Positions 4,546-25,682 of a DNA stretch of 25,682 nt are shown here, piece by piece. Each line of letters begins with the position of its first letter. The stretch's first letter is position 1. The notes beneath the pieces were generated by a model. The model saw nothing but the letters and a program-made list of their open reading frames with translations. It was not told where the DNA came from and made no database searches. A program made the position numbers and the translations under genes. Source of the stretch: a virus; IMG/VR virus record IMGVR_UViG_3300027805_000079, positions 1 to 25,682 of that record; one strand, given 5' to 3'.

Positions 4546-4576
4546 GGCGGAATTTGTCCGCCATAGTGGACAAATT
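4546..4576 (-). other. Two mutually exclusive hairpins between LamG gene and portal operon
   Basis: A perfect 9-base inverted repeat (4551-4559 with 4568-4576, loop of 8) starts at the stop codon of the upstream gene. It overlaps a second inverted repeat, GGCGG/CCGCC (4546-4550 with 4558-4562, loop of 7). The two share bases 4558-4559, so they cannot both form. No U-tract follows either one. This could be a weak terminator or attenuator, an RNA processing site, or chance. Confidence 0.35.
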
Positions 4577-6227
4577 ACTGTGTTGAGTGTACTAATACGT
4601 CAACGTTAAAGCCGTTATAGGAATCTGAGCCTATACTTATGGAATCTGAAGAAGAAGCAATATATGGGTTGCTAACTATATTATTGAAATGCTTAGATGC
4701 TAATCCTGAAGCATCGTAGTCATAAATAGCAATATTAGAATAGTTACTGTTGCTTCCAAGCATGGTGCCAGTCTGTGTTTGGTTAAAGAATAGATCTGCC
4801 TGCTTGTTCGAAGAAAATGTTATTAATACGTGATACCAAATACCGATGTCAAATATATCCGACATTGTAGTAGATGTCTGATTTATACCATTTACGTAGA
4901 ATGAGGAGATATTACTTTTTGTCACATTTCCAGCAGCACTCCAAGAAACTCTAGCGTCTCCACAATCTACCAAAGAGGTCTGTCCTAGGCCCATAGGACG
5001 GTACATAAACTCTACTGACCTTACATCCCCAGAGTTATATCTAAAGCCCCCAGAAAGCGGTATTATGCCTTTATTAGAGGCATAGTAGAGTACGGATGAG
5101 TTTCTTTTTCCAACCAAAAAATTATAGTCTGTTGTTATTTGTCCTATTGAATTATCTGAACCTATTGTTTTAGATTCGTAGCAGATAAAAGATATTCCAG
5201 AAAATACTGGATCGTTAATTGTTGTGTCTGAAGATGCTAATGTGACCTTATAATAAAAATAGCCACCAGAAAATCCAGGTACATTAGAATTATTTGTTGC
5301 TGGATAATACGTCACATCGTCAAAGCTGTACTCGAAGGATGTCCCAGAATTATTAAATAGCCACTCAATTTGATTGTGGTCTGGGTCAGCAACTGGAGGG
5401 AAGAAGTAGTAATCTTTTAAATACCCAGAAGTCTGACCTTCAATCAACTTTATTTCTCTAGAGTCAGTTATATATACATTGGAAAGCTCTGCTGTAGATA
5501 CATCTTTATTTACTCCATAGATCATGGCATGAGATATTGGCTTTGAGTCTCTAGCCGCCTCAAAATAAATTGGGTTATCCATTACAATGTTTCTATTTAT
5601 ATTATTAGCTAAAACTCTATGCTCTAAGATTTCCGATATATATCTAGATGAAACCTTACCCTTAAAGACCTCAATCTTATCCAAAATAATATAGCCAGAG
5701 GTTAGTGTGGATACTAAATCTACATCTATCTCCGCAGCAAACTTAAATGAGGATCCGAGGTCGTAGCTCGCTTTATTTTCTCCATTGATATATAGAGACA
5801 TTCTATTTTCAGAATAAGATCCTATAATGCTATAAGCTTCACCCACAGAAGGAAGCTTATAGTAAATCTTTTTAATGACGTCAGCAGAGTCTTTGATTGA
5901 AAATATTATATTTCCGTCTTTTACTGAAAAGCCAATATCATGAGTTAGGTCATAGAGAAACTTTTGCTCTGTTGAGTATGCATCTGAGAAGAAAGCATAA
6001 AAGGATATGAAAAAGTTTTCTTTCTCATAGCTGTATTTCCCTACTCCTAGATTCTTTACTGATATCGAACTTGTTTGAGTAAGCCTTATTGAGCTATTTG
6101 AAACCGCTGTTAATGGGGTAGTATACTCAAGCTGTCCAGTACCCTGCTTGATAGCAAGGGCGTTGAAACCGCATGGATTTGAGAAAGTCTGGGCAGGCTG
6201 ATTAAATACAGCATCTAATATCTTCAT
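4575..6227 (-). CDS. Large LamG/concanavalin-like virion protein
   Basis: 550 residues with no signal peptide. Two jelly-roll (LamG/concanavalin-type) regions can be seen. The first, at about residues 45-210, contains NFFISFYAFFSD, a central RMSLYINGENKASYDLGS strand pair, and ILDKIEVFKGKVSSRYISEI. The second, at about 390-550, contains VRSVEFMYRPMG, IGIWYHVLITFSSNKQADLFF and SISIGSDSYNG. A beta-rich linker joins them. Such proteins occur in phage tails and fibres and bind carbohydrate. It follows the glycosyltransferase gene by 7 bases and precedes the portal operon. The ribosome site is weak, so translation may be coupled or driven from the TGGTATAAT site at 6234-6242. It may be a head fibre or tail protein; its place next to the portal does not decide which. 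Confidence 0.65.
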   Translation of the reverse strand: MKILDAVFNQPAQTFSNPCGFNALAIKQGTGQLEYTTPLTAVSNSSIRLTQTSSISVKNLGVGKYSYEKENFFISFYAFFSDAYSTEQKFLYDLTHDIGFSVKDGNIIFSIKDSADVIKKIYYKLPSVGEAYSIIGSYSENRMSLYINGENKASYDLGSSFKFAAEIDVDLVSTLTSGYIILDKIEVFKGKVSSRYISEILEHRVLANNINRNIVMDNPIYFEAARDSKPISHAMIYGVNKDVSTAELSNVYITDSREIKLIEGQTSGYLKDYYFFPPVADPDHNQIEWLFNNSGTSFEYSFDDVTYYPATNNSNVPGFSGGYFYYKVTLASSDTTINDPVFSGISFICYESKTIGSDNSIGQITTDYNFLVGKRNSSVLYYASNKGIIPLSGGFRYNSGDVRSVEFMYRPMGLGQTSLVDCGDARVSWSAAGNVTKSNISSFYVNGINQTSTTMSDIFDIGIWYHVLITFSSNKQADLFFNQTQTGTMLGSNSNYSNIAIYDYDASGLASKHFNNIVSNPYIASSSDSISIGSDSYNGFNVDVLVHSTQ

Positions 6228-6233
6228 ATACCA

Positions 6234-6242
6234 ATTATACCA
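6234..6242 (-). promoter_or_regulatory. Possible extended -10 element before the LamG gene
   Basis: On the minus strand TGGTATAAT lies immediately before the start codon at 6227. It has the extended -10 pattern, but the upstream -35 region is poor. The distance to the ATG leaves almost no leader, so it would give a leaderless or near-leaderless mRNA. It may equally be chance. I list it because the same hexamer recurs in most of the other gaps. Confidence 0.3.
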
Positions 6243-7200
6243 TTCTACCCAGTAGCTCTATACTTGGAGCCACTTCGCTGTCTATAAAGCACTCCTCATA
6301 TCTTATTCCCAAGCTGTTTAATATATCTGCATAGACAAATACGTCGTAACCCTCTACATACTTTATTGCTTTAACCGACGACATTTTGTCCATAAGCATA
6401 CAATTTACTAGAGCTGATCCATACTGGCAAACCAGGCTTTCTGATGACATAACAGCTTCAATTTGATCTATCCACCTCATATCTTCAAAGTATGTGATTG
6501 AGTATCCAAGGTCTTTCATCAGGTTTTCCATTTCATCTACATACTTATATGGCCTGTCTACTGTCTTTTTCCTTGAAACAAAAAGCTTCTTTCCGCCGAT
6601 CAAATCCCCTTGGGTAAAAAGCGATCTTATCAGGTTTACGTTCTTCCTCAGTATATGAATTTTTGGAACCTGTAGGAAATGAGATATCTTGTATGAAGAG
6701 TTATTATAAAAATATGAAGGGTCGTTAATTAAATAGTTACTATCATCATAATATAAAAATACGCTAGAGAATCTAGAATTAATTAATTCTTCTGGGCTAA
6801 GACACAAATATTCTACTCCGACAAAATCAAGGAAATCTTTTATGTGAGATGCGTTTTGCTCTGCTTTAGGACTTCCATAAATTAAAGAATTAAATATTCC
6901 TTCTTCATTTTTACTACCAGGATATACTAAAACTACAGTAAAATTTTTTTGATTTCTTAAATTTAATATTTTTGGAAATATTTCTAAAAAGTTATGAAAA
7001 TATTGTTGGATTACTGGGAATACTAGAACAGCTCTATTTTCATTACTATAGGAAGAATAAGATGTAACAGTAGGCTGAAATGACACGCCGTAAGAATTTC
7101 TAACAGAAAAAATAGGATTAGAAACTTCTATAGCAATTTCTGATTCATTAATCTCTATAACATTAATTATATTCCTTAACTCTGTATCTAAATATGACAT
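6235..7200 (-). CDS. GT61-family glycosyltransferase
   Basis: 321 residues resembling glycosyltransferase family 61 (DUF563). N-terminal signs are QQYFHNFLEIFPKILNLRN, matching the family HN..hE...l...l pattern, and a following VVLVYPG strand. C-terminal signs are GGKKLFVSRKK, VDEMENLMKDLGYSITYFED, and the conserved SESLVCQYGSALVNCMLM block, where families usually have hGAgL.N. GT61 includes enzymes that act on proteins (animal EOGT and POMGNT2) and on plant xylans. Here it would transfer a sugar in the cytoplasm, perhaps to a virion protein or host glycan. I choose ATG at 7200, one base after the upstream stop; a TTG at 7212 is in frame but overlaps that gene. It closes the modification cassette. 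Confidence 0.78.
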   Translation of the reverse strand: MSYLDTELRNIINVIEINESEIAIEVSNPIFSVRNSYGVSFQPTVTSYSSYSNENRAVLVFPVIQQYFHNFLEIFPKILNLRNQKNFTVVLVYPGSKNEEGIFNSLIYGSPKAEQNASHIKDFLDFVGVEYLCLSPEELINSRFSSVFLYYDDSNYLINDPSYFYNNSSYKISHFLQVPKIHILRKNVNLIRSLFTQGDLIGGKKLFVSRKKTVDRPYKYVDEMENLMKDLGYSITYFEDMRWIDQIEAVMSSESLVCQYGSALVNCMLMDKMSSVKAIKYVEGYDVFVYADILNSLGIRYEECFIDSEVAPSIELLGRMV

Positions 7201-7201
7201 G

Positions 7202-8059
7202 TTAGTATCCAATACTACTTAGAATCTTATCACACTTATTCATAAACAAAGCTACTCTGTTTCCGCTGTCTACATGTAGGGGAGCCATAGAAAGAAATAG
7301 TGATGCTTGGTATACTGATAAAAGATCTATAGAAATTTCATTCTTTTTAAAAAACTTTATAAGCACATCCGACATTTCTTTTGAGTAGAAATTTTTTCTT
7401 AGCAGAACATTATCATATCCATTAATAACTGAATGAGCTAACTTTGCCATGTCATAATACTCATCCATATATATATCTTCTTCTTTTTTTGCACCACGAG
7501 GATCTATAAATTTAATAAGATTTATTTCGTCTATCCATAAAATATTAGAAAGGCATAGATCTCCATGCGACAGCTTTCTATCCCATACTGACCTATCTTT
7601 TACAAAATGCTCATAGGCATTACACACTCTTTCAAAAAGCTCCATGGACTCATCATACAATTTAAAAGTTTTTATTCTATTAAATGTTTTGTCAAGAACC
7701 AAGTATTTGGACTCTAGGTATGAGGACTCATAATCGTAGTCTAGCGGTTTTAATTCGGATTTAAAATCTTCTACTCTAGAAATCATTCTTTTAAATGATG
7801 CTAAGCTCATTTCCCCATTGACCATAATCTCACCAGCGTTTTGCGTGTCAATTCTTTCCATTTTATAGCTGGCTAAGCCATCAACATATTGGAAGCTAAA
7901 TGGCTGCACAAAATATCTTTTTATACTGTCTGGTAGATAATAGTAATAGTCGTATTCAGACTTTATTTTTTCAAGATCATCTGATGACTTTATAACTATG
8001 TTATCTACAGCTATCACATCATTAAAATATCTTGAGCTGTAATGGTCTGTGTTAAACAT
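7202..8059 (-). CDS. APH/choline-kinase-fold phosphotransferase
   Basis: 285 residues with the aminoglycoside-phosphotransferase/choline-kinase fold. The catalytic loop is LSHGDLCLSNIL (His165, Asp167, Asn172) and the metal-binding Asp is Asp186 in IKFIDPRGA. Family members phosphorylate small molecules, sugars or sugar residues on glycans. The N-terminal lobe is divergent and has no obvious glycine-rich loop, as in many APH relatives. Start ATG at 8059 forms a TGATG overlap with the upstream gene and has AAAGAG seven bases before it; a TTG one codon upstream is less likely. It sits beside a glycosyltransferase gene, suggesting a sugar or glycan substrate rather than antibiotic resistance. 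The substrate cannot be told from sequence. Confidence 0.75.
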   Translation of the reverse strand: MFNTDHYSSRYFNDVIAVDNIVIKSSDDLEKIKSEYDYYYYLPDSIKRYFVQPFSFQYVDGLASYKMERIDTQNAGEIMVNGEMSLASFKRMISRVEDFKSELKPLDYDYESSYLESKYLVLDKTFNRIKTFKLYDESMELFERVCNAYEHFVKDRSVWDRKLSHGDLCLSNILWIDEINLIKFIDPRGAKKEEDIYMDEYYDMAKLAHSVINGYDNVLLRKNFYSKEMSDVLIKFFKKNEISIDLLSVYQASLFLSMAPLHVDSGNRVALFMNKCDKILSSIGY

Positions 8060-8820
8060 CAAACAACTCTTTTTTGATGATCTTTATATAATGAATCGTC
8101 TGAGTATTTACCATTAAAATATCTTCTTCCAGACTGATGTGGCTTTGTTAAATCAGAACTATTTCTTTCTGCACTAAGAGCATGCAACTCCTTTAGCTCA
8201 TTATCTATAAGAGTTTTATCAAAATACTTTGAAACTAAATCTACATCAAATTTGTCGACAAAGTATCTAGGGACTGGTATAAATGCTCCCAAAGCATCTC
8301 CCTTTCTTACACTTACTTTAAAATTTGGAATTGTTATCTTAAGATTAAAAGTAAAATCACGTCTAATCTGGTCTGTTTCTATAACAGCCGTCATAGCAAC
8401 ACATCCTGGAATGAACATGTTTGGTGGCTGGATTGTCATTATATTTACTCCTGGAGGAGTCTTAAGAGCAAATCTATTTTGTATTGTAACTACGCCAGTG
8501 CTAAATCCAGACTTAATTGTTTGTTTGTCAGAATTATCGTCATTTAAAAATGTAAAGGTAATATCGTCTGCTTTATCATTTGATCCGTCCCAGACCATAT
8601 CAAAATCTCTTAATGACTTTATAACATATCCGTACTGATTTCCTATGTTTACTGGCAGACAATAATAAAAGTGCTCATTAAACCAATCCCTTTTTACTTT
8701 ACCCTTTAGGGAATCTATAATCTCGGTGTAAAATCCATCACCATAATCGTTTGGCACAACCAAAATTTTATCTTCTGGAACCTCATGACCTTCATCATTT
8801 ATGTAAACAAGATCTGTCAT
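8059..8820 (-). CDS. DUF6065-like protein, copy B
   Basis: 253 residues, soluble. It is homologous to the protein at 9383-10123: both have a KRDW/KRDF segment, a cysteine-proline segment (YYCLPVNIGNQYGY here, YICQPTTIINTHGW there), a following D(M/V).(I/V)VWDG strand, a central beta region with PN.F..G or PNYFVDG, and KITIPN.KVSVRKG / KITEPNKVVTFKKG. I recall this pattern as DUF6065, a family of unknown function often found near 2OG-Fe(II) oxygenases; the family name is from memory. Its direct partner gene upstream is a 2OG oxygenase. ATG at 8820 makes an ATGA overlap with that gene; an ATG at 8829 is the alternative. It is likely a partner or a second enzyme in the same modification. Confidence 0.7.
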   Translation of the reverse strand: MTDLVYINDEGHEVPEDKILVVPNDYGDGFYTEIIDSLKGKVKRDWFNEHFYYCLPVNIGNQYGYVIKSLRDFDMVWDGSNDKADDITFTFLNDDNSDKQTIKSGFSTGVVTIQNRFALKTPPGVNIMTIQPPNMFIPGCVAMTAVIETDQIRRDFTFNLKITIPNFKVSVRKGDALGAFIPVPRYFVDKFDVDLVSKYFDKTLIDNELKELHALSAERNSSDLTKPHQSGRRYFNGKYSDDSLYKDHQKRVV

Positions 8821-9383
8821 ATCTTCCATCCGTCAAAGTAATTTTTATCTCTTGTCCAAAACGTGGTGATAGTGTATCTTATTCCGCCTTCAACTTTTGA
8901 AACTCCATGAGTATGTTCCTTGTCACCACGATGAAATGCTAAAGATCCAGCTACTGGTGATATCTCAAAATCATGATCTGGGTAGTATGTTTTTCCTCCA
9001 GAATATTCATCATTTAAATAAAGAACTGATCCAAATTCTCTGTGATGAAACCACTCTGTACCATCAATGCTTTTCATGTCATCCCAATGTGGGTGCTGCT
9101 CCTGACCTGGAAACCAACGAACTATTTGCATTAAATCTGGGTACAGATCTTCTTTTATTCCGTAGAAGCCTTTGATTGCACTTCCAATTTCTTCTCTTAT
9201 GCCATAAAGAGCAATTCCCATAGATTTATCTATATTGTTATGTATATTAATAGCATTCAGACTTCTATTTTCCCAAAACTCTGTGCCGCCGTTTTCCCAT
9301 TTTTCTATACCCTTAACAAAATTTAAAATATAACTGCACTCATCTTTAGATAAAAAATTATCAATTACTTTTGGTTCAAACAT
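8817..9383 (-). CDS. 2OG-Fe(II) oxygenase B (prolyl-4-hydroxylase-like)
   Basis: 188 residues forming a complete double-stranded beta-helix dioxygenase of the prolyl-4-hydroxylase type. Visible metal ligands are His99 and Asp101 (HPHWDD) and distal His159 (HTHGV). Arg169, ten residues after the distal His in GGIRYTITTFW, would bind the 2-oxoglutarate carboxylate. YLNDEYSGGKTYYP matches the family YLN....GGeT.F motif. It hydroxylates an unknown substrate using Fe(II), O2 and 2-oxoglutarate. Start ATG at 9383 makes a TGATG junction and has GGAG five bases before it. It is the second of two such oxygenases; each is followed by a DUF6065-like gene. Confidence 0.88.
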   Translation of the reverse strand: MFEPKVIDNFLSKDECSYILNFVKGIEKWENGGTEFWENRSLNAINIHNNIDKSMGIALYGIREEIGSAIKGFYGIKEDLYPDLMQIVRWFPGQEQHPHWDDMKSIDGTEWFHHREFGSVLYLNDEYSGGKTYYPDHDFEISPVAGSLAFHRGDKEHTHGVSKVEGGIRYTITTFWTRDKNYFDGWKI

Positions 9384-10123
9384 CACGGCTCCATTAAATT
9401 TATTTTAAATACAGAATCTAAATATTTTTCATCATGTGGACCGACTCCCTTTTTATAAAAGTTGCCCCATGTCCAGTCTTCATTTTCTTCATAAAACTTA
9501 TGTCTTTTTTGAGCATAAGCATCAATTTTTGAAATAAGGTCTTTGTTTTCTGCCAGGTTTTCTATGGAGATACTTGTTGACTCTAAGAGATCTTTTGGAT
9601 AGTTATATATAAAAGCTATCGGAGTTCCCTTTTTAAATGTTACTACCTTATTTGGCTCTGTTATCTTCCAGCAAAAGTTCGCTTCTCCGTATGTATAGTA
9701 ATCAGATCTCCACAAAGCATTCATTGGCTTAACGCCATCTACAAAATAATTTGGAGAACCGCTCATCATAATATAATGATCTTTGTCTGTTTCAAAAAAA
9801 CAATTTAACTGAAAAGTTATTGTTCCACTACCAGTAAGTGTGCTTGCTATTCTCATTCCATCATAATACTCGCCACTTATAATCTTTACATGGCTTGGAT
9901 CTGGACTAATTACTCCATCCCAAACAATTTCCACATCGTGTGGCAACAAGAATTCCCATCCGTGTGTATTAATTATTGTTGTAGGCTGACAAATATAGCC
10001 GTGTGATTTATGCGTTTCTGATAAAAAATCTCTTTTTATAGATCCTTGCTTTACTTGATATGGAAATCTATTCGGATCTTGAGTCCACAGTTTTATAAAT
10101 TGGTGAGTCTTTTCTGTGTGCAT
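9383..10123 (-). CDS. DUF6065-like protein, copy A
   Basis: 246 residues, soluble, rich in Trp and Tyr, and a paralogue of the protein at 8059-8820 (shared segments described there). The C-terminal tail ends in a Trp-rich stretch, ENEDWTWGNFYKKGVG, absent from copy B. ATG at 10123 has a good GGAG with a 5-base spacer; the GTG two codons upstream is unlikely. The start lies 56 bases inside the preceding 2OG oxygenase gene, in a different frame, so the last 18 or so residues of that enzyme share DNA with this N-terminus. That is a long overlap for this genome and suggests the pair is co-translated. Function unknown; the repeated pairing with 2OG oxygenases is the best clue. Confidence 0.7.
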   Translation of the reverse strand: MHTEKTHQFIKLWTQDPNRFPYQVKQGSIKRDFLSETHKSHGYICQPTTIINTHGWEFLLPHDVEIVWDGVISPDPSHVKIISGEYYDGMRIASTLTGSGTITFQLNCFFETDKDHYIMMSGSPNYFVDGVKPMNALWRSDYYTYGEANFCWKITEPNKVVTFKKGTPIAFIYNYPKDLLESTSISIENLAENKDLISKIDAYAQKRHKFYEENEDWTWGNFYKKGVGPHDEKYLDSVFKINLMEP

Positions 10124-10715
10124 AATCACTCCAATCTGTCATGCATACAATTGAATATTTTATTCCAGACTTAACTGGAACAGAAGCATGAGAATAAATA
10201 TACGAGGATGGAAATAGTATCAAATCACCAGCTTCTGGCTTAATATTTAAATTAAAATTATCAAAGTACAGTTCTCCGCCTTCATAGTCGTCATTGACAT
10301 ATCCTACAGTGGAAACAGTACATCTATATGGCTCTCCATCATCAGTATGAACCTCAAACTTTTCTCCAGGACCATACTTTACCATATTTAAAGCACCAAT
10401 AAACTTAACAGTTACTGAAAACATGGTTTCATAGTCATTAAGACATTCTCTTATTGATGAGTGAACTAAGTCATGCATATCCATAAGATCTGAATTATCA
10501 TTATTTTTTTCACCTAGTAGTTCTTTTGTGTAAATAAAATCTTGACAATTTCTGCTATTATTATCTGTCTGGAAATATCCAACTCTTGCACCACGCCACT
10601 TAAATTGCTTTGAATCGTCACCTAAAGATTTTTCAAGTCTTTCTACCATATTCCATTCTTTTTTAATTGCATTTTTATATGCAACAATTCCTGGACCAAG
10701 GATTGTCTTTTCCAT
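10068..10715 (-). CDS. 2OG-Fe(II) oxygenase A (prolyl-4-hydroxylase-like)
   Basis: 215 residues with the 2OG-Fe(II) dioxygenase signature: His123 and Asp125 (HTDDGEPYR), distal His176 (YSHASVPV), and Lys186 exactly ten residues later in SGIKYSIV. Most bacterial relatives have Arg at that site. Lys is what animal collagen prolyl-4-hydroxylase uses to bind 2-oxoglutarate. YVNDDYEGGELYF matches the family GGeL.F motif. The N-terminal 90 residues contain YKNAIKKEWNMVERLE and an asparagine-rich loop. Start ATG at 10715 follows AGGAAAG. It overlaps the next gene by 56 bases. Related enzymes are common in cyanophages, where substrates are unknown. The substrate here is also unknown; a protein proline or a glycan/lipid are possible. 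Confidence 0.88.
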   Translation of the reverse strand: MEKTILGPGIVAYKNAIKKEWNMVERLEKSLGDDSKQFKWRGARVGYFQTDNNSRNCQDFIYTKELLGEKNNDNSDLMDMHDLVHSSIRECLNDYETMFSVTVKFIGALNMVKYGPGEKFEVHTDDGEPYRCTVSTVGYVNDDYEGGELYFDNFNLNIKPEAGDLILFPSSYIYSHASVPVKSGIKYSIVCMTDWSDYAHRKDSPIYKTVDSRSE

Positions 10716-10716
10716 A

Positions 10717-10941
10717 CTACCACTTTCCTAGCGGGCATTTAGCTGCCTCTAATTTTGTTTTTACAGTCATAAAACAACCGCATTTTTGACATCTATTTGT
10801 ATGAGCTGTTAAAAATTCACATGACTTGCAGGTATCAAATCTGGCACTTGAGACTTCATCTGTTGTTTGTCTTGTTGCTGGATTTAATAAATCTAACGGA
10901 GTAACTCCATTTTTTGCTTTATACTCAGACCATCTGCTCAC
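10717..10941 (-). CDS. Small zinc-ribbon protein
   Basis: 74 residues. Six cysteines in the pattern C-x2-C (38, 41), C-x2-C-x-C (51, 54, 56) and Cys69 in CPLGKW form a probable zinc ribbon in the second half; the first half is a short helical arm. I have seen similar tails (CGCFM, CPLGKW) in phage proteins beside 2OG oxygenases, but I recall no tested function. The start is GTG at 10941, directly abutting the TAA of the upstream gene. The stop is one base before the next start, so it is tightly co-expressed with oxygenase A. It may be an adaptor or a metal-binding regulator; no DNA-binding motif is visible beyond the ribbon. Confidence 0.75.
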   Translation of the reverse strand: MSRWSEYKAKNGVTPLDLLNPATRQTTDEVSSARFDTCKSCEFLTAHTNRCQKCGCFMTVKTKLEAAKCPLGKW

Positions 10942-11331
10942 TTATTCATACCATTCTGGATATCCAGTCATATCCCTATTAGTTATAATAAACTTTTCGC
11001 CATCAAATTTAGCATATGGCGATTGAACATATCTTCCATATGGATATTTTTCTAGATCAACAACTTGAGGCTCGCTTAGCAATATACTACCAAAATACTC
11101 TGTTGTTTGCAAGTCTTCGAGTACCTCGCCGTTTTTCATGAACCTTACTGTAAGTCCATCATGCTCAGGGTACTGATCTGATATATCTATAACCTCATCA
11201 GATTCTGTAAACATTGGTACATACTGAATATCTACTGCTATGTCATAAAGACAGTCACCGTCTATAACCCACACAAGGGCTGCGCCGTCTGATCCAGCAA
11301 TAAATTCATCTAATTTTTCATCTGTAAGCAT
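10942..11331 (-). CDS. Hypothetical protein, first gene after the consensus promoter
   Basis: 129 residues, acidic (many Asp and Glu) and soluble. The middle has SDEVIDISDQYPEHDGLTVRFMKNGEVLED and the end has an aromatic tail, YAKFDGEKFIITNRDMTG, that resembles the small beta-hairpin repeats (..yaKFDGekF..) found in tail-fibre chaperone-like proteins. I do not recognise a family. The start is firm: AAAAGGAAA precedes the ATG by five bases. It is the first gene downstream of a perfect TTGACA/TATAAT promoter, so it and the modification genes that follow are probably one transcription unit. It might be a chaperone for the PASTA-PPVFT protein encoded just upstream. Confidence 0.7.
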   Translation of the reverse strand: MLTDEKLDEFIAGSDGAALVWVIDGDCLYDIAVDIQYVPMFTESDEVIDISDQYPEHDGLTVRFMKNGEVLEDLQTTEYFGSILLSEPQVVDLEKYPYGRYVQSPYAKFDGEKFIITNRDMTGYPEWYE

Positions 11332-11351: not shown

Positions 11352-11381
11352 ATTATATCAAAATTAACCAGATATTGTCAA
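11352..11381 (-). promoter_or_regulatory. Consensus sigma-70 promoter of the modification cassette
   Basis: On the minus strand there is TTGACA (11381-11376), an 18-base spacer, and TATAAT (11357-11352). Both hexamers match the consensus perfectly. The -35 begins three bases after the stop codon of the PASTA gene and the whole promoter lies in the 52-base gap. Transcription would begin near 11345 and give a leader of about 14 bases that is mostly the AAAAGGAAA ribosome site. A fully consensus promoter inside a structural-gene run suggests the cassette is also expressed early by host RNA polymerase. Confidence 0.78.
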
Positions 11382-11383
11382 TT

Positions 11384-12853
11384 TTAAATGTATAAGCATC
11401 TGTATGAAGATCCACTACAAGCGGCTCCAGAACCACAATATCCTGTATCGCATCCACGAGAACCACATGCTCCAGTTCTAGTATCTAGAGATGTACATGT
11501 AGTACCGTTTGTAGACGTAAATACTGGAGGCGCTGTAAATACTGGAGGAGCGGTGAAGACTGGAGGAGGAGTAAATACTGGTGGAGGAGTAAATACAGGT
11601 GGTGCTGTAAACACAGGTGGTGCGGTAAACACAGGTGGTGCGGTAAACACTGGTGGTGGGGTAAACACTGGTGGTGGGGTAAATACAGGAGGAGCTGTAA
11701 ACACTGGTGGGGCGGTGAAGACTGGAGGTGTAGGTGTACATGTAGCCTGAGTTGGTGTTGATGGATATCCAGTTCCGTAAATAATATTTACATTTGAAAG
11801 AGATCCACAATTATCTCCAAACCACTCCTGGACCCTTGCTGCAGAAACAGTGCTTGAATAGTTGGTAGCAACACCGTCGCAGCATGCTCTTCCCCAATAA
11901 CCCTGGACTGTAGTAAATACAGGCGGAGGTGTAAATACTGGAGGAGCGGTGAAGACTGGAGGCGCAGTAAATACTGGTGGGCTAACTGTAAATACAGGTG
12001 GTGCAGTAAATACAGGTGGTGGACCTGTAAAGACGGGAGGAGGTGCTGTGAATACTGGAGGTGCAGTAAATACGGGAGGTGGACCTGTAAAGACGGGAGG
12101 AGGTGCTGTGAATACTGGAGGTGCAGTAAATACGGGAGGTGGTGGAGTAAAGACAGGTGGTGGTGCAACATAAACAATCTTAGTTAAATAAACTGGAGAT
12201 GCAAATGGGTGCAAAGTTGTGGGTATTGGAACCTGTGAAGAAATTAAGCCATTAAGGTCAATGTATGTTTGTGATGATCCAGTATTATTTGTAACTGATA
12301 TATTTGTAAATAAAGCGGAATTAAGCAAAAGCCTTGCTTCTGCTTCAGTTTTATTAATTACATCTGGCAATAAGCCTTCAGTGGCTGGAATATAGTTTCC
12401 TACAGTAAGAGTTACATTACTTCCTGCTGGAAGTTGAACTGGGGGTTCTGGATTTTGAGATAAAACTATATCCTGATTGTTTACATTTTGAGTGGGAACG
12501 GTAATAATAGTATATGTAAGTAGTGATGATGTAAGTGTTGCTGCCGCTACATTTTTATTTGTGCCAACAACATATGGAACAGTTACTGCCGCAAGGGTTC
12601 GAACTGTGTATTCGATCTTTGTTTTAAATCTGATTCTTTTTCCAGAAGGAACTGCCTGTGAAATGACAACTCCGCCAGTTCCAGATGTATCAACAAAATA
12701 TTTTTCATCTGGTCTCAAACCTTGACCATCAAGGGTAGCTTGTGCAATAACATTGTTTAGACCAACTAGATTTGGTACTATTACACGAGCATACGGAACA
12801 TTTAAATGTTCTACCTGTTGATTTTTATCCTTGGGAAAAGACTGGACGGCCAA
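11384..12853 (-). CDS. PASTA-domain, PPVFT-repeat virion protein
   Basis: 489 residues. Three PASTA-like repeats occupy about 24-86, 90-152 and 158-228 (VIVPNLVGLN, VTVPYVVGTN and LLPDVINKTEAEA starts; SQ..P.G ends). PASTA domains bind peptidoglycan stem peptides or muropeptides in PknB kinases and PBPs. Then come 13 PPVFT repeats (230-314), a cysteine island (318-372, with Cys324, 325, 349, 372), 12 more PPVFT repeats (375-446) and a Cys-rich tail (six Cys in 447-489). No signal peptide or membrane helix is present. The start is TTG at 12853, supported by GGGAG six bases upstream; no ATG occurs nearby. It ends the fibre block. Probable role: cell-wall-contacting fibre or spike. The PPVFT segments may be stiff polyproline rods and are plausible hydroxylation or glycosylation targets. 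Confidence 0.8.
   Translation of the reverse strand: MAVQSFPKDKNQQVEHLNVPYARVIVPNLVGLNNVIAQATLDGQGLRPDEKYFVDTSGTGGVVISQAVPSGKRIRFKTKIEYTVRTLAAVTVPYVVGTNKNVAAATLTSSLLTYTIITVPTQNVNNQDIVLSQNPEPPVQLPAGSNVTLTVGNYIPATEGLLPDVINKTEAEARLLLNSALFTNISVTNNTGSSQTYIDLNGLISSQVPIPTTLHPFASPVYLTKIVYVAPPPVFTPPPPVFTAPPVFTAPPPVFTGPPPVFTAPPVFTAPPPVFTGPPPVFTAPPVFTVSPPVFTAPPVFTAPPVFTPPPVFTTVQGYWGRACCDGVATNYSSTVSAARVQEWFGDNCGSLSNVNIIYGTGYPSTPTQATCTPTPPVFTAPPVFTAPPVFTPPPVFTPPPVFTAPPVFTAPPVFTAPPVFTPPPVFTPPPVFTAPPVFTAPPVFTSTNGTTCTSLDTRTGACGSRGCDTGYCGSGAACSGSSYRCLYI
11516..11731 (-). repeat. PPVFT-coding repeat block 2
   Basis: Twelve in-frame units of 6 residues (A/P/T-P-P-V-F-T, 18 bases each) encode the second polyproline rod of the PASTA protein. 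Codons vary between units (ggc, gga, ggt on the plus strand), so most copies are not recent. The four core units PPPVFT-PPPVFT-APPVFT-APPVFT occur twice in the block. Confidence 0.85.
11912..12166 (-). repeat. PPVFT-coding repeat block 1
   Basis: Thirteen units of 6-7 residues (for example APPVFT, GPPPVFT, VSPPVFT) encode the first polyproline rod of the PASTA protein. The right part of the block includes a perfect 60-base tandem duplication, listed separately. The units are less regular than block 2, with extra prolines giving PPP and PPPP. Confidence 0.85.
12021..12140 (-). repeat. Perfect 60-bp tandem duplication within the PPVFT block
   Basis: Bases 12021-12080 and 12081-12140 are identical. 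The unit codes 20 residues (three PPVFT-type motifs), so copy number can change without frameshift. Perfect identity, against the divergence of the neighbouring units, indicates a recent duplication by slippage or unequal recombination. Confidence 0.95.
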
Positions 12854-14844: not shown

Positions 14845-15804
14845 TTAAGTTGTCTTCTGCCAGTATGTGATAATACATATTCCTGTACCACCAGATCCAG
14901 ATGTTACGTTATCATTTGATCCTCCGCCGCCTGAGCCAGAGTTAGGACGTGCATCACGACCCTGATCTCCGTGTGTTGATGATCTTCCTTGTCCTCCACC
15001 GCAAGAACCGTTACCGCACATTCCACGAGCTCCTCCGCCGCCACCGCCAGCTAATCCATTAATACCATTTCCACCATTGCCAGCATTCCATGCTTGACGT
15101 GAATCTCCTACACCAGATCCTGCTCCACCAGCTGAAGAACCTTCAGAGGTTAAGCGACCTCCACAACGACCTGCGTATTGGTTATTTTGAAAGTTACCAA
15201 ACATTCCAGCATGTTCCCCAGGACCACCAGCTCCGCCGCCACCGCCAGCAGCACCCCAGTTAGTTTGCCAACCAGAACCGCCGCCACCGCCTGAGCCGTA
15301 GCCAGTTATGTTATCTGCACCAATTCCACATGCTCCACCATTTCCATTGTTTCCATTATTATTTCCATGTCCACCTCCGCCTCCGCCGTAGGCTACCATG
15401 TAGAATGTATTTATAGACGTACCAAAAGCTGAGTTGGCACCATTGTTACCATTTGTATTTCCAGTAACACCAGAGCCACCATTTCCAATAGTAATTGGAA
15501 TAACTCCCAGTGCTGCGACAGAGTTAATATTAACGATTCTTCTTAAGTATTGACCTGCGCCACCGCCACCGCCAAAGTAATCTCCGCCAGACCATAGTCC
15601 ACCTGCGCCACCGCCAGCAACAAGTACTACTTCTATGAAGTCGGCAATATTCTGTGGACGTGTCCAGTTACCAGTAGAGGCAATTATTGATTGTGCTTGT
15701 ATAAATAGTGGAGTTGGAGGAGTAACACCTCTTACAATAGTTCCAAGTGTGTCTTCTAGACCAGGAACCATTATCTGCTGTTGATTATTTAAAAATGTTG
15801 GCAT
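14845..15804 (-). CDS. Polyglycine (Gly-rich domain) adhesin, copy 3
   Basis: 319 residues. The N-terminal 75 residues are ordinary beta-rich sequence ending with the signature ATGNWTRPQNIADFIEVVLVAGGGAGG. Residues about 75-310 are packed with GGGGG blocks separated by short polar loops, the mark of glycine-rich (polyglycine-II sandwich) phage adhesins like Salmonella phage S16 gp38. The last 20 residues (CIITYW) close a beta strand. It is very close to its upstream neighbour at 15804-16772. Differences concentrate in loops between glycine blocks, as expected of receptor-contacting loops. Its start overlaps that gene's stop by one base (TAATG). Confidence 0.85.
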   Translation of the reverse strand: MPTFLNNQQQIMVPGLEDTLGTIVRGVTPPTPLFIQAQSIIASTGNWTRPQNIADFIEVVLVAGGGAGGLWSGGDYFGGGGGAGQYLRRIVNINSVAALGVIPITIGNGGSGVTGNTNGNNGANSAFGTSINTFYMVAYGGGGGGHGNNNGNNGNGGACGIGADNITGYGSGGGGGSGWQTNWGAAGGGGGAGGPGEHAGMFGNFQNNQYAGRCGGRLTSEGSSAGGAGSGVGDSRQAWNAGNGGNGINGLAGGGGGGARGMCGNGSCGGGQGRSSTHGDQGRDARPNSGSGGGGSNDNVTSGSGGTGICIITYWQKTT

Positions 15805-16772
15805 TATGCATTCACCTTAGCCCAATAATTAATTATGCAAATTCCACTTCCGCCTGCACCTGAAACCGTTCTATCATTTGTTCCGCCTCCGCCTGAGCCT
15901 GAGCTAGGACGTGCATCACCACCTTGCCATCCATGAGTATAGCCATAACCCTGTCCTCCACCACAAGAACCATTACCGTTTCCACCTCTAGCAGATCCAC
16001 CGCCTCCGCCTGCTAATCCGTTAATACCATTTCCACCATTGCCACCAGGCCATGCCTGTCTTGAGTCACCGCTTGGAGACATTCCTGCTCCACCAGCTGA
16101 AGAACCTTCAGAGTTTAAGCGTCCGCCACAGCGACCTGCGTATTGATTTGCTTGAAAGTTACCATTCATTCCGCCATGTTGTCCTGGACCACCTGCTCCG
16201 CCGCCACCGCCTGCTGCTCCCCATGCGTTTTGCCACTCTGAGCCTCCGCCTCCGCCTGAGCCGTAGCCAGTTATGTTATTTGCTCCTGGACCACAGGAGC
16301 CACCGTTTCCATTATTTCCGTTTGCATTTCCATGTCCACCTCCGCCTCCGCCGTAGGCTACCATATAGAATGGTTGTCCAGAGGTACCGAAAGCAGAGTT
16401 TCCACCATTGTTACCATTTGCTGTTCCAGAAACTGCTGAACCGCCATTACCAATCGTAACTGAAATTGTGCTTCCAGATGTTATAGAAGATATATCAAGA
16501 ATTCTTTTAAGGTACTGTCCTGCGCCTCCGCCTCCGCCAAATCTTGCATCGTTTCCATAAGATGCTCCAGCTCCACCTCCAGCAACCAAGACAACATCTA
16601 TGTAGTCAGCAATATTTGCTGGACGTGTCCAGTTACCAGTTGCTGATATAACAGAAGCCTGTCTAACAAATAGTGGGGTTGGAGGAGTAACTGCTCTTAC
16701 AACTGCACCTAAAGTTTCCTCTAAGCCTACTGCAATCGCATTGCCAGTTGTAGATGTAATTGTAATAGCCAC
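15804..16772 (-). CDS. Polyglycine (Gly-rich domain) adhesin, copy 2
   Basis: 322 residues with the same plan as the neighbour at 14845-15804: an N-terminal attachment segment, ATGNWTRPANIADYIDVVLVAGGGAGA, and then a glycine-rich domain with blocks such as GYGSGGGGGSEW and AAGGGGGAGGPG. Cysteines recur at matching places (for example AGRCGGRL, NGSCGGGQG, GICIINYW). The start is GTG at 16772, supported by AAAAGGAG five bases before. High identity with the next gene at both protein and DNA level indicates tandem duplication. Probable role: one of several alternative receptor-binding adhesins. Confidence 0.85.
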   Translation of the reverse strand: MAITITSTTGNAIAVGLEETLGAVVRAVTPPTPLFVRQASVISATGNWTRPANIADYIDVVLVAGGGAGASYGNDARFGGGGGAGQYLKRILDISSITSGSTISVTIGNGGSAVSGTANGNNGGNSAFGTSGQPFYMVAYGGGGGGHGNANGNNGNGGSCGPGANNITGYGSGGGGGSEWQNAWGAAGGGGGAGGPGQHGGMNGNFQANQYAGRCGGRLNSEGSSAGGAGMSPSGDSRQAWPGGNGGNGINGLAGGGGGSARGGNGNGSCGGGQGYGYTHGWQGGDARPSSGSGGGGTNDRTVSGAGGSGICIINYWAKVNA

Positions 16773-16783
16773 TATTACTCCTT

Positions 16784-17059
16784 TTAATTTTCTGGATTTA
16801 GTCCAGGTACTACTTCTACCTGATTTATTGATCTATCTTCTTCTTCAATTACTGGAGGAAGAGGTTCAGGCATTGGATCCTTAACAAACTCTCCGTCCTT
16901 GTAAGTCCATCCAGATGGACTTGGTTTTTCTGTCATATCAGTAACATCGATTACTTCATAAACTTTATAATCTTCGTGCTCTGCAAACCATTCTGGTGAA
17001 CCACCATATACAACATTGATGATTTCTTCTCCGTTAACTAATGCGTATGTTCTTTCCAT
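16784..17059 (-). CDS. Small tail-fibre-assembly-like chaperone
   Basis: 91 residues (MERTYALVNGEEIINVVYGG...). The opening matches the first domain of phage tail-fibre-assembly chaperones (ALV.nG.viNVv), followed by WTYKDGEFVKDP and an acidic, proline-rich tail (PEPLPPVIEEED). It lacks the C-terminal YR.aLRd domain found in its relatives, so it is a short form. The right start is ATG at 17059, which overlaps the upstream stop by one base (TAATG) and has AGAAGGG seven bases before it; a TTG at 17092 would overlap the adhesin gene. It sits directly after a polyglycine adhesin and is probably its chaperone. Confidence 0.7.
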   Translation of the reverse strand: MERTYALVNGEEIINVVYGGSPEWFAEHEDYKVYEVIDVTDMTEKPSPSGWTYKDGEFVKDPMPEPLPPVIEEEDRSINQVEVVPGLNPEN

Positions 17060-18021
17060 TATGATACCCTTCTGTAATATTCTATCCAGCAAAGTCCGTT
17101 TCCGCCCTTTGCTCCTCCGCCACCTGACCAGTAGCTTCCTCCGCCGCCTCCACCAGTTCCGTCCATTCCAGCGTTTCCAGCATTTTGTGTTAAGTTGTCT
17201 CCACCTGTACCGCCACCATTACATCCTGGGCCTGCGTTTCCGCCGCCTCCGCCGCCGCCGCCAGCTAATCCATTAATACCAACTCCACCAAGTCCTCCCC
17301 AAGTATGATACTGTCCCCAACCATTTGAGTTTCCAGTTCCACCATCAGATCCACCATTTCCGCCACCACGACCTCCGCCGTAACCAGTATATCCAGTTCC
17401 TGCAGAGTAAGTTCCTTGATAAGCGTGTCCTCCTGGACCACCTGCTCCTCCGCCACCGCCAGCTCCATTGTACTGATTTTGCCAGTAGCCTCCGCCACCT
17501 CCGCCTGAGCCACCACCTGATGTAACTGCTCCTGCACCGTTTGATCCGTATCTACCGTTTCTTCCCCAACCTTGTGCGTATCCGCCTCCGCCGCCACCGT
17601 AAGAGATTAGATAGAATGGATTACCATTCACTCCAAATGTAGAGTCTGCTCCGTCATTTCCAACAGAGTTACCACCGACAGCGGCTCCACCCGTTCCAAT
17701 TGTAACGGGAACGTTAGCTCCAGCTGCAACTGAAGATATATCAACATATCTTACCAAATATTGTCCAGCGCCGCCTCCACCTGCGCCAGTATAGTTCCAT
17801 GAAGTTGCGGATCCACCTGATCCGCCTCCTCCAATGAGTGTAACCTTTATCCAGTTAGCAATGTTTGTTGGTCTTGTCCAGTTACCAGTAGAATAAAGTC
17901 TTTGCTCTACTGGAAGATAAGCTCCACCATTTACAATAAGGTTTGCTGAAACAATACTTGTCAGGGTTGCTGTTAATCCTGGCAAATATGTTTGACTAGT
18001 TGTTGTGCCAACTGTTGACAT
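17059..18021 (-). CDS. Polyglycine (Gly-rich domain) adhesin, copy 1
   Basis: 320 residues. After 45 residues of N-terminal attachment sequence comes YSTGNWTRPTNIANWIKVTLIGGGGSGG and then a domain dominated by GGGGG strands to the end (final LCWIEYYRRVS). It has the same plan as copies 2 and 3 but is clearly diverged, with mostly different loops (rich in Trp, Tyr and Asn). GGAG with a 6-base spacer supports the ATG. It is followed, with a one-base overlap, by a short chaperone-like gene. It is probably a second receptor-binding adhesin with its own chaperone. Confidence 0.85.
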   Translation of the reverse strand: MSTVGTTTSQTYLPGLTATLTSIVSANLIVNGGAYLPVEQRLYSTGNWTRPTNIANWIKVTLIGGGGSGGSATSWNYTGAGGGGAGQYLVRYVDISSVAAGANVPVTIGTGGAAVGGNSVGNDGADSTFGVNGNPFYLISYGGGGGGYAQGWGRNGRYGSNGAGAVTSGGGSGGGGGGYWQNQYNGAGGGGGAGGPGGHAYQGTYSAGTGYTGYGGGRGGGNGGSDGGTGNSNGWGQYHTWGGLGGVGINGLAGGGGGGGGNAGPGCNGGGTGGDNLTQNAGNAGMDGTGGGGGGSYWSGGGGAKGGNGLCWIEYYRRVS

Positions 18022-24189: not shown

Positions 24190-24753
24190 TTATAGAATAA
24201 AGCTTGTTGCTGAAATTGTTCCAGTAACAGTTGAAAGATTTGCAAGGGTATTATACTTTGGAAAGTATATACCTAAGTTTAGCAGAATATCCAATTCATA
24301 TGCGGATACTCTTCTTTCAATGTCCGCCACAACTATTTCACCAGTTGGGCCTGTAGGTCCTGCTGGACCTGTTGGGCCTGCTGGACCCATAATATTGTCT
24401 GCGAATGCCCACGCTGGTGTTGGCAATGCGCTAAATGTAAATAAATCACCAGTTGTTGTATTTAAGAACTGGTCTCCAGTAAAGTATCCAGCTGTAGAAA
24501 CTGGATTTACTGATCCAGTAAAATACTTAGATCCTCTTTCACCAGTAGGTCCTATTGCACCCTGATTTCCCTGAGCACCCGCTGGACCTGGAACGCCTTG
24601 TGGACCTTGAGGTCCCGCTGGACCTGCCGCTCCCGCTGGGCCTGCCGCTCCCTGTGGTCCTGTTGGACCCGCTGGGCCTGCTGGACCTGTAGGGCCTGGA
24701 CGTGAACCAGCAACGGTAACCCATTGCGTTCCATCATAGCGTTTTAATGACAT
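24190..24753 (-). CDS. Collagen-like tail fibre protein
   Basis: 187 residues. The opening MSLKRYDGTQWVTVAGS is the usual start of phage collagen-like fibres. Residues 20-74 are 18 uninterrupted Gly-X-Y triplets, residues 75-122 a globular insert with GDQFLNTTTGDLFTF, and residues 123-138 five more triplets. Residues 139-187 form a helix and beta end (IERRVSAYELDILLNLG...) that may trimerise the fibre. Collagen triplets form a rod-like triple helix. In most triplets proline is in the X position (GPA, GPT, GPQ), with only one clear Y-position Pro (GVP), so it would not be a standard animal-type hydroxylase substrate. AGGAG precedes the ATG by nine bases. Confidence 0.88.
   Translation of the reverse strand: MSLKRYDGTQWVTVAGSRPGPTGPAGPAGPTGPQGAAGPAGAAGPAGPQGPQGVPGPAGAQGNQGAIGPTGERGSKYFTGSVNPVSTAGYFTGDQFLNTTTGDLFTFSALPTPAWAFADNIMGPAGPTGPAGPTGPTGEIVVADIERRVSAYELDILLNLGIYFPKYNTLANLSTVTGTISATSFIL
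24532..24696 (-). repeat. Collagen Gly-X-Y coding repeat
   Basis: Fifty-five codons encode 18 Gly-X-Y triplets, dominated by GPA, GPT and GPQ. The 9-base periodicity is plain in the DNA. Codons vary enough that the tract is not a recent simple expansion. Confidence 0.9.
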
Positions 24754-24788: not shown

Positions 24789-25682
24789 TTATAATAATCC
24801 CATATAACCAAAGACCTCTAGCTGGTCTTTTCTATTATTAGGGTATAGCTTTTCCCAAGAAGAAGTAATATTAACTGTTCCTGAAACTGTTATTGAACCT
24901 GTCATCATAGAATGATATTGACAGATATAAAATAGATTATCTGGGGCATTATATGGAACATTAAATATTATTGTTCCATTATCTATGCCATTATTTTGAA
25001 CTCCATAGTACCAATCAAATCCTATGCCAGTCTTTTGCTGCGTTTTAATCCAGAATGGATGTCCTGGAGCATTTACATTAAATACATACTTTTTGCCACG
25101 CTGGAATATAAGCGGAGCATTTGCAACTCCATTTATTGAGTAGCTACCCATTCCATTATTTGTTACATTGTAGGTTGCAGCCAAAGTATACTCTGGGATT
25201 ATAACTCTTGATATATACAAAGATCTATTATCTTCAACATAAGCTATCATTCCGCCGTGGGTAGCTGCATTTGGAAGTTCTAGAATTGTGTTGTAAACAG
25301 ATCTATTTCCTTCATAAACGTTTGCAACTGTAAATGTCTCTAGACCTTCTTCTGTAGAAGTATCGATCCAAAGCTCTGACTCTGCTGGGAGTGGTGCTGT
25401 TTCTCTTACGGTTACAAGTTGTCCTGCAAGGTCATCTATATCTACCCAAAAATCACCTTCAATTGGTGTTTGTGATGGTGGCTCTTCATCAGAATAAATT
25501 AATGGAAGCTCTGGCTCATCTGTATCAACCCATAGAGTTCCAGAACCATAAGTATCTGGAGCATCTGGACCAACATGTATAAATTCTGTATCTCCAGCAT
25601 CATCATCTATGTCTATCCATAGATCTCCAATATTTTGTGTTCCACTTGTTGGAGCAGAAGCACCAAAGAAGATAATTGCTGG
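24789..25682 (-). CDS. Fibre protein with GDLW repeats and cupredoxin-like domain (5' end off window)
   Basis: The frame stays open from the stop at 24789 to the window edge (297 residues), so the Met at 25250 is internal. Four repeats about 28 residues apart carry G-D/T-L/F-W-I/V-D cores (Trp at visible residues 22, 51, 79, 105), a motif common in phage fibres. The C-terminal part (about residues 165-266) is a cupredoxin fold: SYSINGVANAPL, RGKKYVFNVNAPGHPFWI and GTIIFNVPYNAPDNLFYIC. Candidate ligands are His208 (GHPFW), Cys254, His257 and Met260 (CQYHSMM), a complete His-Cys-His-Met type-1 copper set; the HSMM spacing resembles CuA-type loops. Similar domains occur in marine phage structural proteins. 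It could bind copper or simply keep the fold. It is a virion component by context. Confidence 0.8.
   Translation of the reverse strand, partial: PAIIFFGASAPTSGTQNIGDLWIDIDDDAGDTEFIHVGPDAPDTYGSGTLWVDTDEPELPLIYSDEEPPSQTPIEGDFWVDIDDLAGQLVTVRETAPLPAESELWIDTSTEEGLETFTVANVYEGNRSVYNTILELPNAATHGGMIAYVEDNRSLYISRVIIPEYTLAATYNVTNNGMGSYSINGVANAPLIFQRGKKYVFNVNAPGHPFWIKTQQKTGIGFDWYYGVQNNGIDNGTIIFNVPYNAPDNLFYICQYHSMMTGSITVSGTVNITSSWEKLYPNNRKDQLEVFGYMGLL
25362..25628 (-). repeat. Four GDLWID-type protein repeats
   Basis: Four degenerate units with cores GDLWID, GTLWVD, GDFWVD and SELWID, spaced 26-29 residues. DNA similarity is modest, so they are old duplications. More copies may lie beyond the window edge. 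Confidence 0.75.

Follow-up and report, generated by a model that had tools for sequence, protein, structure and literature searches.

Plants, algae and a few protists are known to attach glycans to hydroxyproline. In the extensin-type proteins of plants and algae, proline-rich repeats of the polyproline-II kind go together with prolyl 4-hydroxylase (P4H)-like enzymes and glycosyltransferases. We analyzed a comparable combination in a 25.7-kb virus contig (IMG/VR record IMGVR_UViG_3300027805_000079, positions 1 to 25,682; this whole stretch of 25,682 nucleotides is referred to as the window), where a protein with proline (Pro) repeats of the sequence PPVFT is encoded directly upstream of a cassette of eight genes, which include two 2-oxoglutarate (2OG)-Fe(II) oxygenases and a GT61 glycosyltransferase. 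Like the extensin-type systems, the phage locus pairs Pro-rich repeats, P4H-like enzymes and glycosyltransferases, but PPVFT differs from the Ser-(Hyp)4 motif (Hyp, hydroxyproline), and none of the plant Hyp arabinosyl- or galactosyltransferase families was recovered among the cassette genes scanned with Pfam. A second relative is the Skp1 pathway of Toxoplasma and Dictyostelium, in which the GT60 enzyme Gnt1 adds N-acetylglucosamine (GlcNAc) to a hydroxyproline of Skp1 that is made by a prolyl hydroxylase (PMC6939170). The likeness lies in the succession of a cytoplasmic 2OG prolyl hydroxylase (the P4H PhyA) and a sugar transferase (Gnt1), and in the fact that sibling phages with the same backbone as the window carry PF11397/GT60 homologs beside prolyl-hydroxylase-like enzymes. 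The window itself, however, has GT61, and the proposed phage target is a long repeat rod instead of a single Skp1 proline.

Among viruses, hydroxylation and glycosylation have been noted for the collagen of mimivirus (PMC8968730). Mimivirus L230 and chlorella virus vCPH resemble what is proposed here in being virus-encoded hydroxylases for a viral repeat protein, and vCPH ranks among the top structural matches to one of the two oxygenases (oxygenase B), but these are eukaryotic viruses with collagen, whereas the present locus involves tailed phages, non-collagen Pro repeats and exchangeable cassettes. Mycobacteriophage-encoded glycosyltransferases decorate virion proteins (Freeman et al. 2023, cited in PMC12619734 and PMC11256854). 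Phage-encoded transferases are common to that system and the window; the decoration described in the citing accounts concerns the capsid and tail-tube C-termini, and the passages in question mention neither a hydroxylation step nor Pro repeats. Finally, the 2OG-Fe(II) oxygenases of marine cyanophages (PHROG 61) are prolyl-hydroxylase-like by structure according to the Phold paper (PMC12774648). The enzyme superfamily is common to these phages and the window, and in cyanophage S-MbCM6 a zinc ribbon adjoins the 2OG genes, although the stretch of S-MbCM6 that was read contains no Pro-repeat protein. No description of phage cassettes of this kind was found in the open-licence literature. The component families are known and, as far as could be checked, a phage-borne, repeat-matched module for hydroxylation and glycosylation is new.

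We consider it probable that the eight genes form a protein-modification module dedicated to one substrate, the upstream protein, whose 25 PPVFT repeats would be hydroxylated by the 2OG enzymes and glycosylated by GT61. Dozens of other phage contigs have this pairing too, with repeats and enzymes that are interchangeable. The relevant features of the window, from high to low coordinates, are:

11384..12853, minus strand: 489-aa Pro-repeat protein, directly upstream of the cassette (Pfam PASTA 2.5e-19, repeat count)
11352..11381, minus strand: sigma-70-type promoter, TTGACA-18-TATAAT with extended -10 (12/12 consensus matches)
10942..11331, minus strand: 129-aa protein
10717..10941, minus strand: DUF6171 zinc ribbon (Pfam, Cys pattern)
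10068..10715, minus strand: 2OG-Fe(II) oxygenase A, of the H...D...H...K type (Pfam)
9383..10129, minus strand: DUF6065 protein A (Pfam)
8817..9386, minus strand: 2OG-Fe(II) oxygenase B (Pfam, AlphaFold2 model)
8059..8829, minus strand: DUF6065 protein B (Pfam, AlphaFold2 model)
7202..8062, minus strand: kinase of the aminoglycoside phosphotransferase (APH) fold (catalytic pattern, PHROGs match)
6235..7212, minus strand: GT61 glycosyltransferase (Pfam 6.6e-12)
4575..6227, minus strand: LamG-like 550-aa protein, which closes the variable segment and is kept in the siblings

The eight open reading frames of the cassette run from 11331 down to 6235. Six of the eight overlap a neighbor by 4-62 bp (the overlaps being 11, 4, 13, 4 and 62 bp) and the remaining two junctions are gaps of 1 and 0 bp. 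These coordinates and junctions, together with the Pfam annotations, bear out the eight co-directional and mostly overlapping genes of a preliminary description of this DNA, and the consensus promoter that it placed ahead of them was recovered at 11381-11352 as the top of 22 candidates, in a region with fewer candidates than the shuffled expectation. All Pfam matches of the oxygenases (2OG-FeII_Oxy_3, 1.1e-9 and 1.4e-11) and the DUF6065 proteins (2e-33 and 8.6e-38) exceeded the curated cut-offs. In its N-terminal ~225 aa, the Pro-repeat protein has three PASTA domains, not named earlier, followed by PPVFT repeats in two blocks and a Cys-rich C-terminal tail; an exact count returned the 25 PPVFT units reported before, and 82 of its 489 residues are Pro. 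Members of the PASTA family may bind peptidoglycan. Considering that the portal of the window is 62% identical to the portals of Streptomyces phages in the Stanwilliamsviridae, the host is probably an actinobacterium.

The association between cassette and Pro-repeat proteins was analyzed in both directions. Using DUF6065 alone, 80 loci were fetched, of which those with at least 2.5 kb of upstream sequence (n=40) were informative. Automatic scoring identified a Pro-repeat protein at most seven genes upstream in 32/40, and on reading one was also found upstream of an extra zinc-ribbon block in L082, L084 and L085, which brings the number to about 35/40, with five loci lacking such a protein. Cassettes without a proline-rich protein, which according to the preliminary description would argue against its proposal, are accordingly not common. 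In the reverse direction, the cassette was present in 15/15 informative PPIIAVT contigs (14 of which had already been found by DUF6065; a sixteenth stretch stops within the repeat gene and was not counted as informative) and in 3/3 contigs with in-frame PPVFT proteins, including L021 on an unrelated backbone. Pattern matches to PPVFT in L111 and L112 are out of frame and were judged to be due to chance. A set with PPVT repeats comprised 48 unique loci that extend 2 kb or more downstream, and the zinc ribbon was found within four genes in 27 of them; the zinc-ribbon profile used for the quantitative tests was built from short sequences, after an earlier version had drawn in a second oxygenase family (OGC). 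A cassette member was found at 27/30 loci with dense repeats and at 4/18 with sparse repeats, a division that was noticed after seeing the data and does not account for phylogeny. In the PPVT contigs, cassettes within six genes always lay downstream and never upstream. The recurring order is Pro-repeat protein, a protein of ~140 aa (110-160 aa), zinc ribbon and 2OG oxygenases, with the ribbon as the second gene after the repeat gene in 44 unique loci. The genes upstream of the positive loci fall into 5-15 groups depending on the threshold (5-7 at 30-50% identity), which implies that the association is not confined to one clade, even if the loci are by no means fully independent. Thus, the co-occurrence that the preliminary description had put forward as a check turned out strongly positive both ways. 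Searches of 50,697 phage records at the DNA level, with DUF6065 and with the PASTA part of the protein, returned nothing, and hence revealed no cultured relative that carries the cassette. Among 85k genomes, DUF6065 appeared on only two small contigs from freshwater metagenome-assembled genomes (MAGs), L353 and L354; in these proteobacterial contigs the 2OG-DUF6065 pair (L353:1101-2493 and L354:3695-4946) stands beside a gene that by eye resembles a phosphoethanolamine transferase.

A control set of 62 unique collagen-repeat loci is informative with respect to another candidate substrate, the collagen-like fibre encoded at 24190-24753 of the window. Prolyl hydroxylases classically act on collagen, and a 2OG gene is found near 17/62 of the control loci. 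The fibre gene is real, but it lies 12.9 kb from the cassette, and the zinc ribbon was found beside 0/62 collagen-repeat genes versus 27/48 PPVT loci (p=6e-13), as was GT61 (0/62 versus 13/48, p=7e-6). The zinc-ribbon/GT61 module therefore goes with proline repeats, and it is highly improbable that the fibre, which the preliminary description had offered as an alternative, is the substrate in place of the PPVFT protein. The frequency of 2OG genes in the control set indicates that such genes are generally common near fibre genes. Within the collagen-repeat loci (L233-L352) a 2OG gene occurred within eight genes downstream in 17/62, and within six genes it was downstream at 18 loci and upstream at 1, which possibly reflects a separate collagen-hydroxylation pairing.

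Sibling contigs share the flanks of the window (portal 97-100%, most tail genes 76-95%) and differ at the cassette site. L003 and L004 have the same PPVFT repeats and enzymes as the window as far as the contigs extend. In L006, L007 and L092/L093 the PASTA part is ~70% identical to that of the window, and the repeats are PPIIAVT, PPIIATP and TAPTVTP, respectively. The zinc ribbon and the oxygenases are retained across these swaps, while GT61 and the kinase are exchanged for GT60 in L006 and L007, and in L092 for a sugar epimerase, a weakly O-FucT-like protein (below the cut-off of Pfam) and two further genes. Given the conserved PASTA part and the differing repeats and enzymes, the exchanged unit includes the repeat half of the Pro-repeat gene along with the enzymes. 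In the L092 segment (L092:4551-8495), the epimerase matches at Pfam 1e-41 and two of the proteins are SGNH-like by eye; the glycan made there may be unusual. In two other Pro-repeat proteins (L040:2999-4093 and L015:2176-3279) a HINT/intein-like C-terminus (Hom_end_hint/Intein_splicing, below the Pfam cut-off) replaces the Cys-rich tail, and similar ends were seen by eye in L032, L037, L052 and L056, which is suggestive of self-processing or C-terminal ligation of the rod. Elsewhere in the window, three neighboring paralogous glycine-rich proteins (14845-18021; 319-322 aa) diverge strongly between siblings, and a protein among the tail genes (24789-25682) has a segment, FYICQYHSMMTG, that by eye appears cupredoxin-like.

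The two oxygenases fit the prolyl-hydroxylase-like 2OG class, which is characterized by the HxD...H iron triad, the Arg/Lys for 2-oxoglutarate and the double-stranded beta-helix. In oxygenase B, H100, D102, H160 and R170 are invariant over 36 sequences, and in oxygenase A the H, D, H and K are conserved. A sequence search of the PDB with oxygenase B returned prolyl 3- and 4-hydroxylases only, and its AlphaFold2 model (predicted local distance difference test score, pLDDT, 95) is best matched in Foldseek by P3H1 (template modeling score, TM, 0.79), the collagen prolyl hydroxylase of PBCV-1 and the P4H of B. anthracis; its predicted fold is that of a prolyl hydroxylase. Oxygenase A is nearest to PiuC, the B. 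anthracis P4H and LH3. On the tree of oxygenase B, the repeat type changes 12 times compared to 29.4 times in shuffles. L006, despite its backbone in common with the window, joins phages of other backbones with PPII repeats (98/92), whereas the window joins phages with Phe-containing repeats (90/76), so that judged from these sequences the oxygenase phylogeny follows the repeat type and not the phage backbone. Close relatives of oxygenase A were present at 7/15 loci with aromatic repeats versus 0/57 others, a comparison made after seeing the data and uncorrected for phylogeny. One contig (L013:4352-9132) combines a Pro-Pro-x-Phe-Phe repeat protein with three consecutive enzymes of the oxygenase A type.

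The glycosyltransferase of the window is a clear GT61 (PF04577, 46.3 bits at a cut-off of 27, 6.6e-12). Some GT61 enzymes, such as EOGT and POMGNT2, act on proteins; for the enzyme of the window, the linkage to Pro-repeat genes is an indirect pointer to its acceptor. A Pfam scan of 51 other cassette genes yielded GT61 (9), GT60 'GlcNAc' (5) and JmjC/Cupin_8 hydroxylases, as well as single matches to a sugar-nucleotide dehydrogenase, a carbamoyltransferase and an arylsulfotransferase. Counting unique sequences, 24 GT61 and 19 GT60 (PF11397) were obtained, all within the repeat or DUF6065 sets and none in the collagen set. Among the 50,697 phage records GT60 gave one weak match, the family thus being almost missing from cultured phages; the GT60 of Xanthomonas phage XacN1 was considered as a parallel and dismissed, as its context differs. 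The kinase has no significant Pfam match, but contains the APH-type catalytic pattern (HGDLCLSN...IDPRG) and matches PHROGs at 1e-21. Its phage relatives form the C-terminal part of proteins with an N-terminal nucleoside-diphosphate (NDP)-sugar pyrophosphorylase (NTP_transferase), which makes a sugar-activating kinase likelier than the analogy with POMK drawn in the preliminary description; it is probably a sugar or small-molecule kinase.

The nature of these sugar genes bears on two other explanations. Polysaccharide pathways often include GT61 enzymes and APH kinases, the fused relatives of the kinase stand beside epimerases and a NodZ-like fucosyltransferase, and the cassette varies between siblings. 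The oxygenases and transferases might hence act on a glycan of the host surface or on a small molecule, leading to superinfection exclusion or receptor masking, with the Pro repeats nearby merely because the locus is a hypervariable region of host interaction. We regard this as unlikely, considering that the zinc ribbon is missing from comparable regions with collagen fibres (0/62), that cassette presence depends on repeat density, that the repeat type tracks the oxygenase clade and that oxygenase B resembles peptidyl prolyl hydroxylases. Alternatively, the rod could be hydroxylated only, with GT61 and the kinase acting on another target, or the sugar could be attached to the Thr of PPVFT instead of to hydroxyproline. 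The sugar-transferring genes are indeed the most variable, with the zinc ribbon and the oxygenases as constant core, and Thr, a normal site of O-glycosylation, occurs in the PPVFT, PPVT, PPIIAVT and PPTT repeats. The cassette is, however, also found with repeats of little or no Thr, like the 50-residue polyproline run that accompanies GT60 in L069 and the Pro-Pro-x-Phe-Phe repeats of L013, and the known GlcNAc-transferase for hydroxyproline belongs to GT60, which renders this explanation quite unlikely.

The remaining cassette proteins have less obvious roles. The zinc ribbon (PF19668, 28.3 bits at a cut-off of 27, 2.3e-6) has the pattern CxxC...CxKCGCFM...CPLGKW, and its Cys pattern is conserved in 33 sequences. 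By itself the ribbon is not diagnostic for the cassette, as Stenotrophomonas phage Moby has matches to it in a non-structural region. In most related loci a protein of ~110-160 aa fills the slot between the Pro-repeat gene and the ribbon, and many of these end in a WDGxxF-like motif. The model of DUF6065 protein B (pLDDT 87.6) weakly matches trimeric dUTPase (beta-clip; Foldseek E 2.4e-4, TM 0.35/0.66), and a PDB sequence search with DUF6065 gave nothing significant. A segment of the DUF6065 consensus (window proteins at 8059-8829 and 9383-10129), GVIETDNIRRDF...KKGDPLGAFIP, resembles dUTPase motifs by eye. As a guess, DUF6065, the zinc ribbon and the 129-aa protein could be adaptors or chaperones.

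Directly established are the gene content, the catalytic residues, the prolyl-hydroxylase fold of oxygenase B, the linkage to Pro-repeat proteins and the linked swapping of repeats and enzymes. Hydroxylation followed by glycosylation is the most economical reading of these data, because of the adjacency in many phages, the prolyl-hydroxylase fold, the GT60/GT61 neighbors and the oxygenase type that tracks the repeat type. In terms of substrate, modified residue, chemistry and glycan, the two oxygenases would hydroxylate the PPVFT rod in the cytoplasm, most likely at Pro and possibly at an adjacent residue too, after which GT61 would transfer a sugar to the new hydroxyl or extend a first sugar; in the siblings GT60 and others would add the sugar instead. 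For the kinase, the probable role is activation or phosphorylation of a sugar or another small substituent. Together, these steps would yield a stiff polyproline-II rod with attached sugars, linking the PASTA head, which may bind the cell wall, to the Cys-rich tip, and as to display and benefit, the finished rod would probably be exposed on the tail. Basically, the hydroxylation-then-glycosylation cassette for PPVFT repeats of the preliminary description is retained, as the comparative evidence indicates that cassette and PPVFT protein belong together, whereas its POMK analogy and its collagen substrate are not.

Several observations weigh against this proposal. A virion location of the Pro-repeat protein is suggested by gene order and the PASTA/FN3 domains only. 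As linkage between neighboring genes could by itself couple repeats and enzymes, the sibling swaps and the oxygenase tree are no proof of an enzyme-substrate relation. Within eight genes, 17/48 unique PPVT loci lack a cassette member, mostly those with sparse repeats and long proteins; 2OG oxygenases also occur near collagen repeats, as described above; and the freshwater MAG contigs have the 2OG-DUF6065 pair without a Pro-repeat protein. In addition, Pfam detects no GT60 in the window, which consequently does not itself have the Skp1-type combination of P4H and GT60 (GT60 is present in L006, L007 and related cassettes). Polysaccharides and small molecules are also among the substrates of the GT61 and 2OG_3 families.

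With somewhat less than even confidence, the proposal may be extended to many uncultured tailed phages. These would then carry exchangeable substrate-plus-enzyme modules, in which prolyl-hydroxylase-like enzymes and GT60/GT61 build hydroxyproline-linked glycans on Pro-repeat virion rods according to a repeat-to-enzyme code, with oxygenase A reading the Phe-containing units. If true, the hydroxyproline glycosylation of plants and amoebae would have a phage counterpart, and this would provide a defined, bacterially expressible enzyme set for making hydroxylated glycoproteins. It would also give a substrate to some of the 2OG oxygenases that are common in aquatic phages, and suggest a reason why DUF6065 and DUF6171 travel with 2OG oxygenases. 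For the phages themselves, a swappable decorated rod would constitute a mechanism for host recognition or tail protection.

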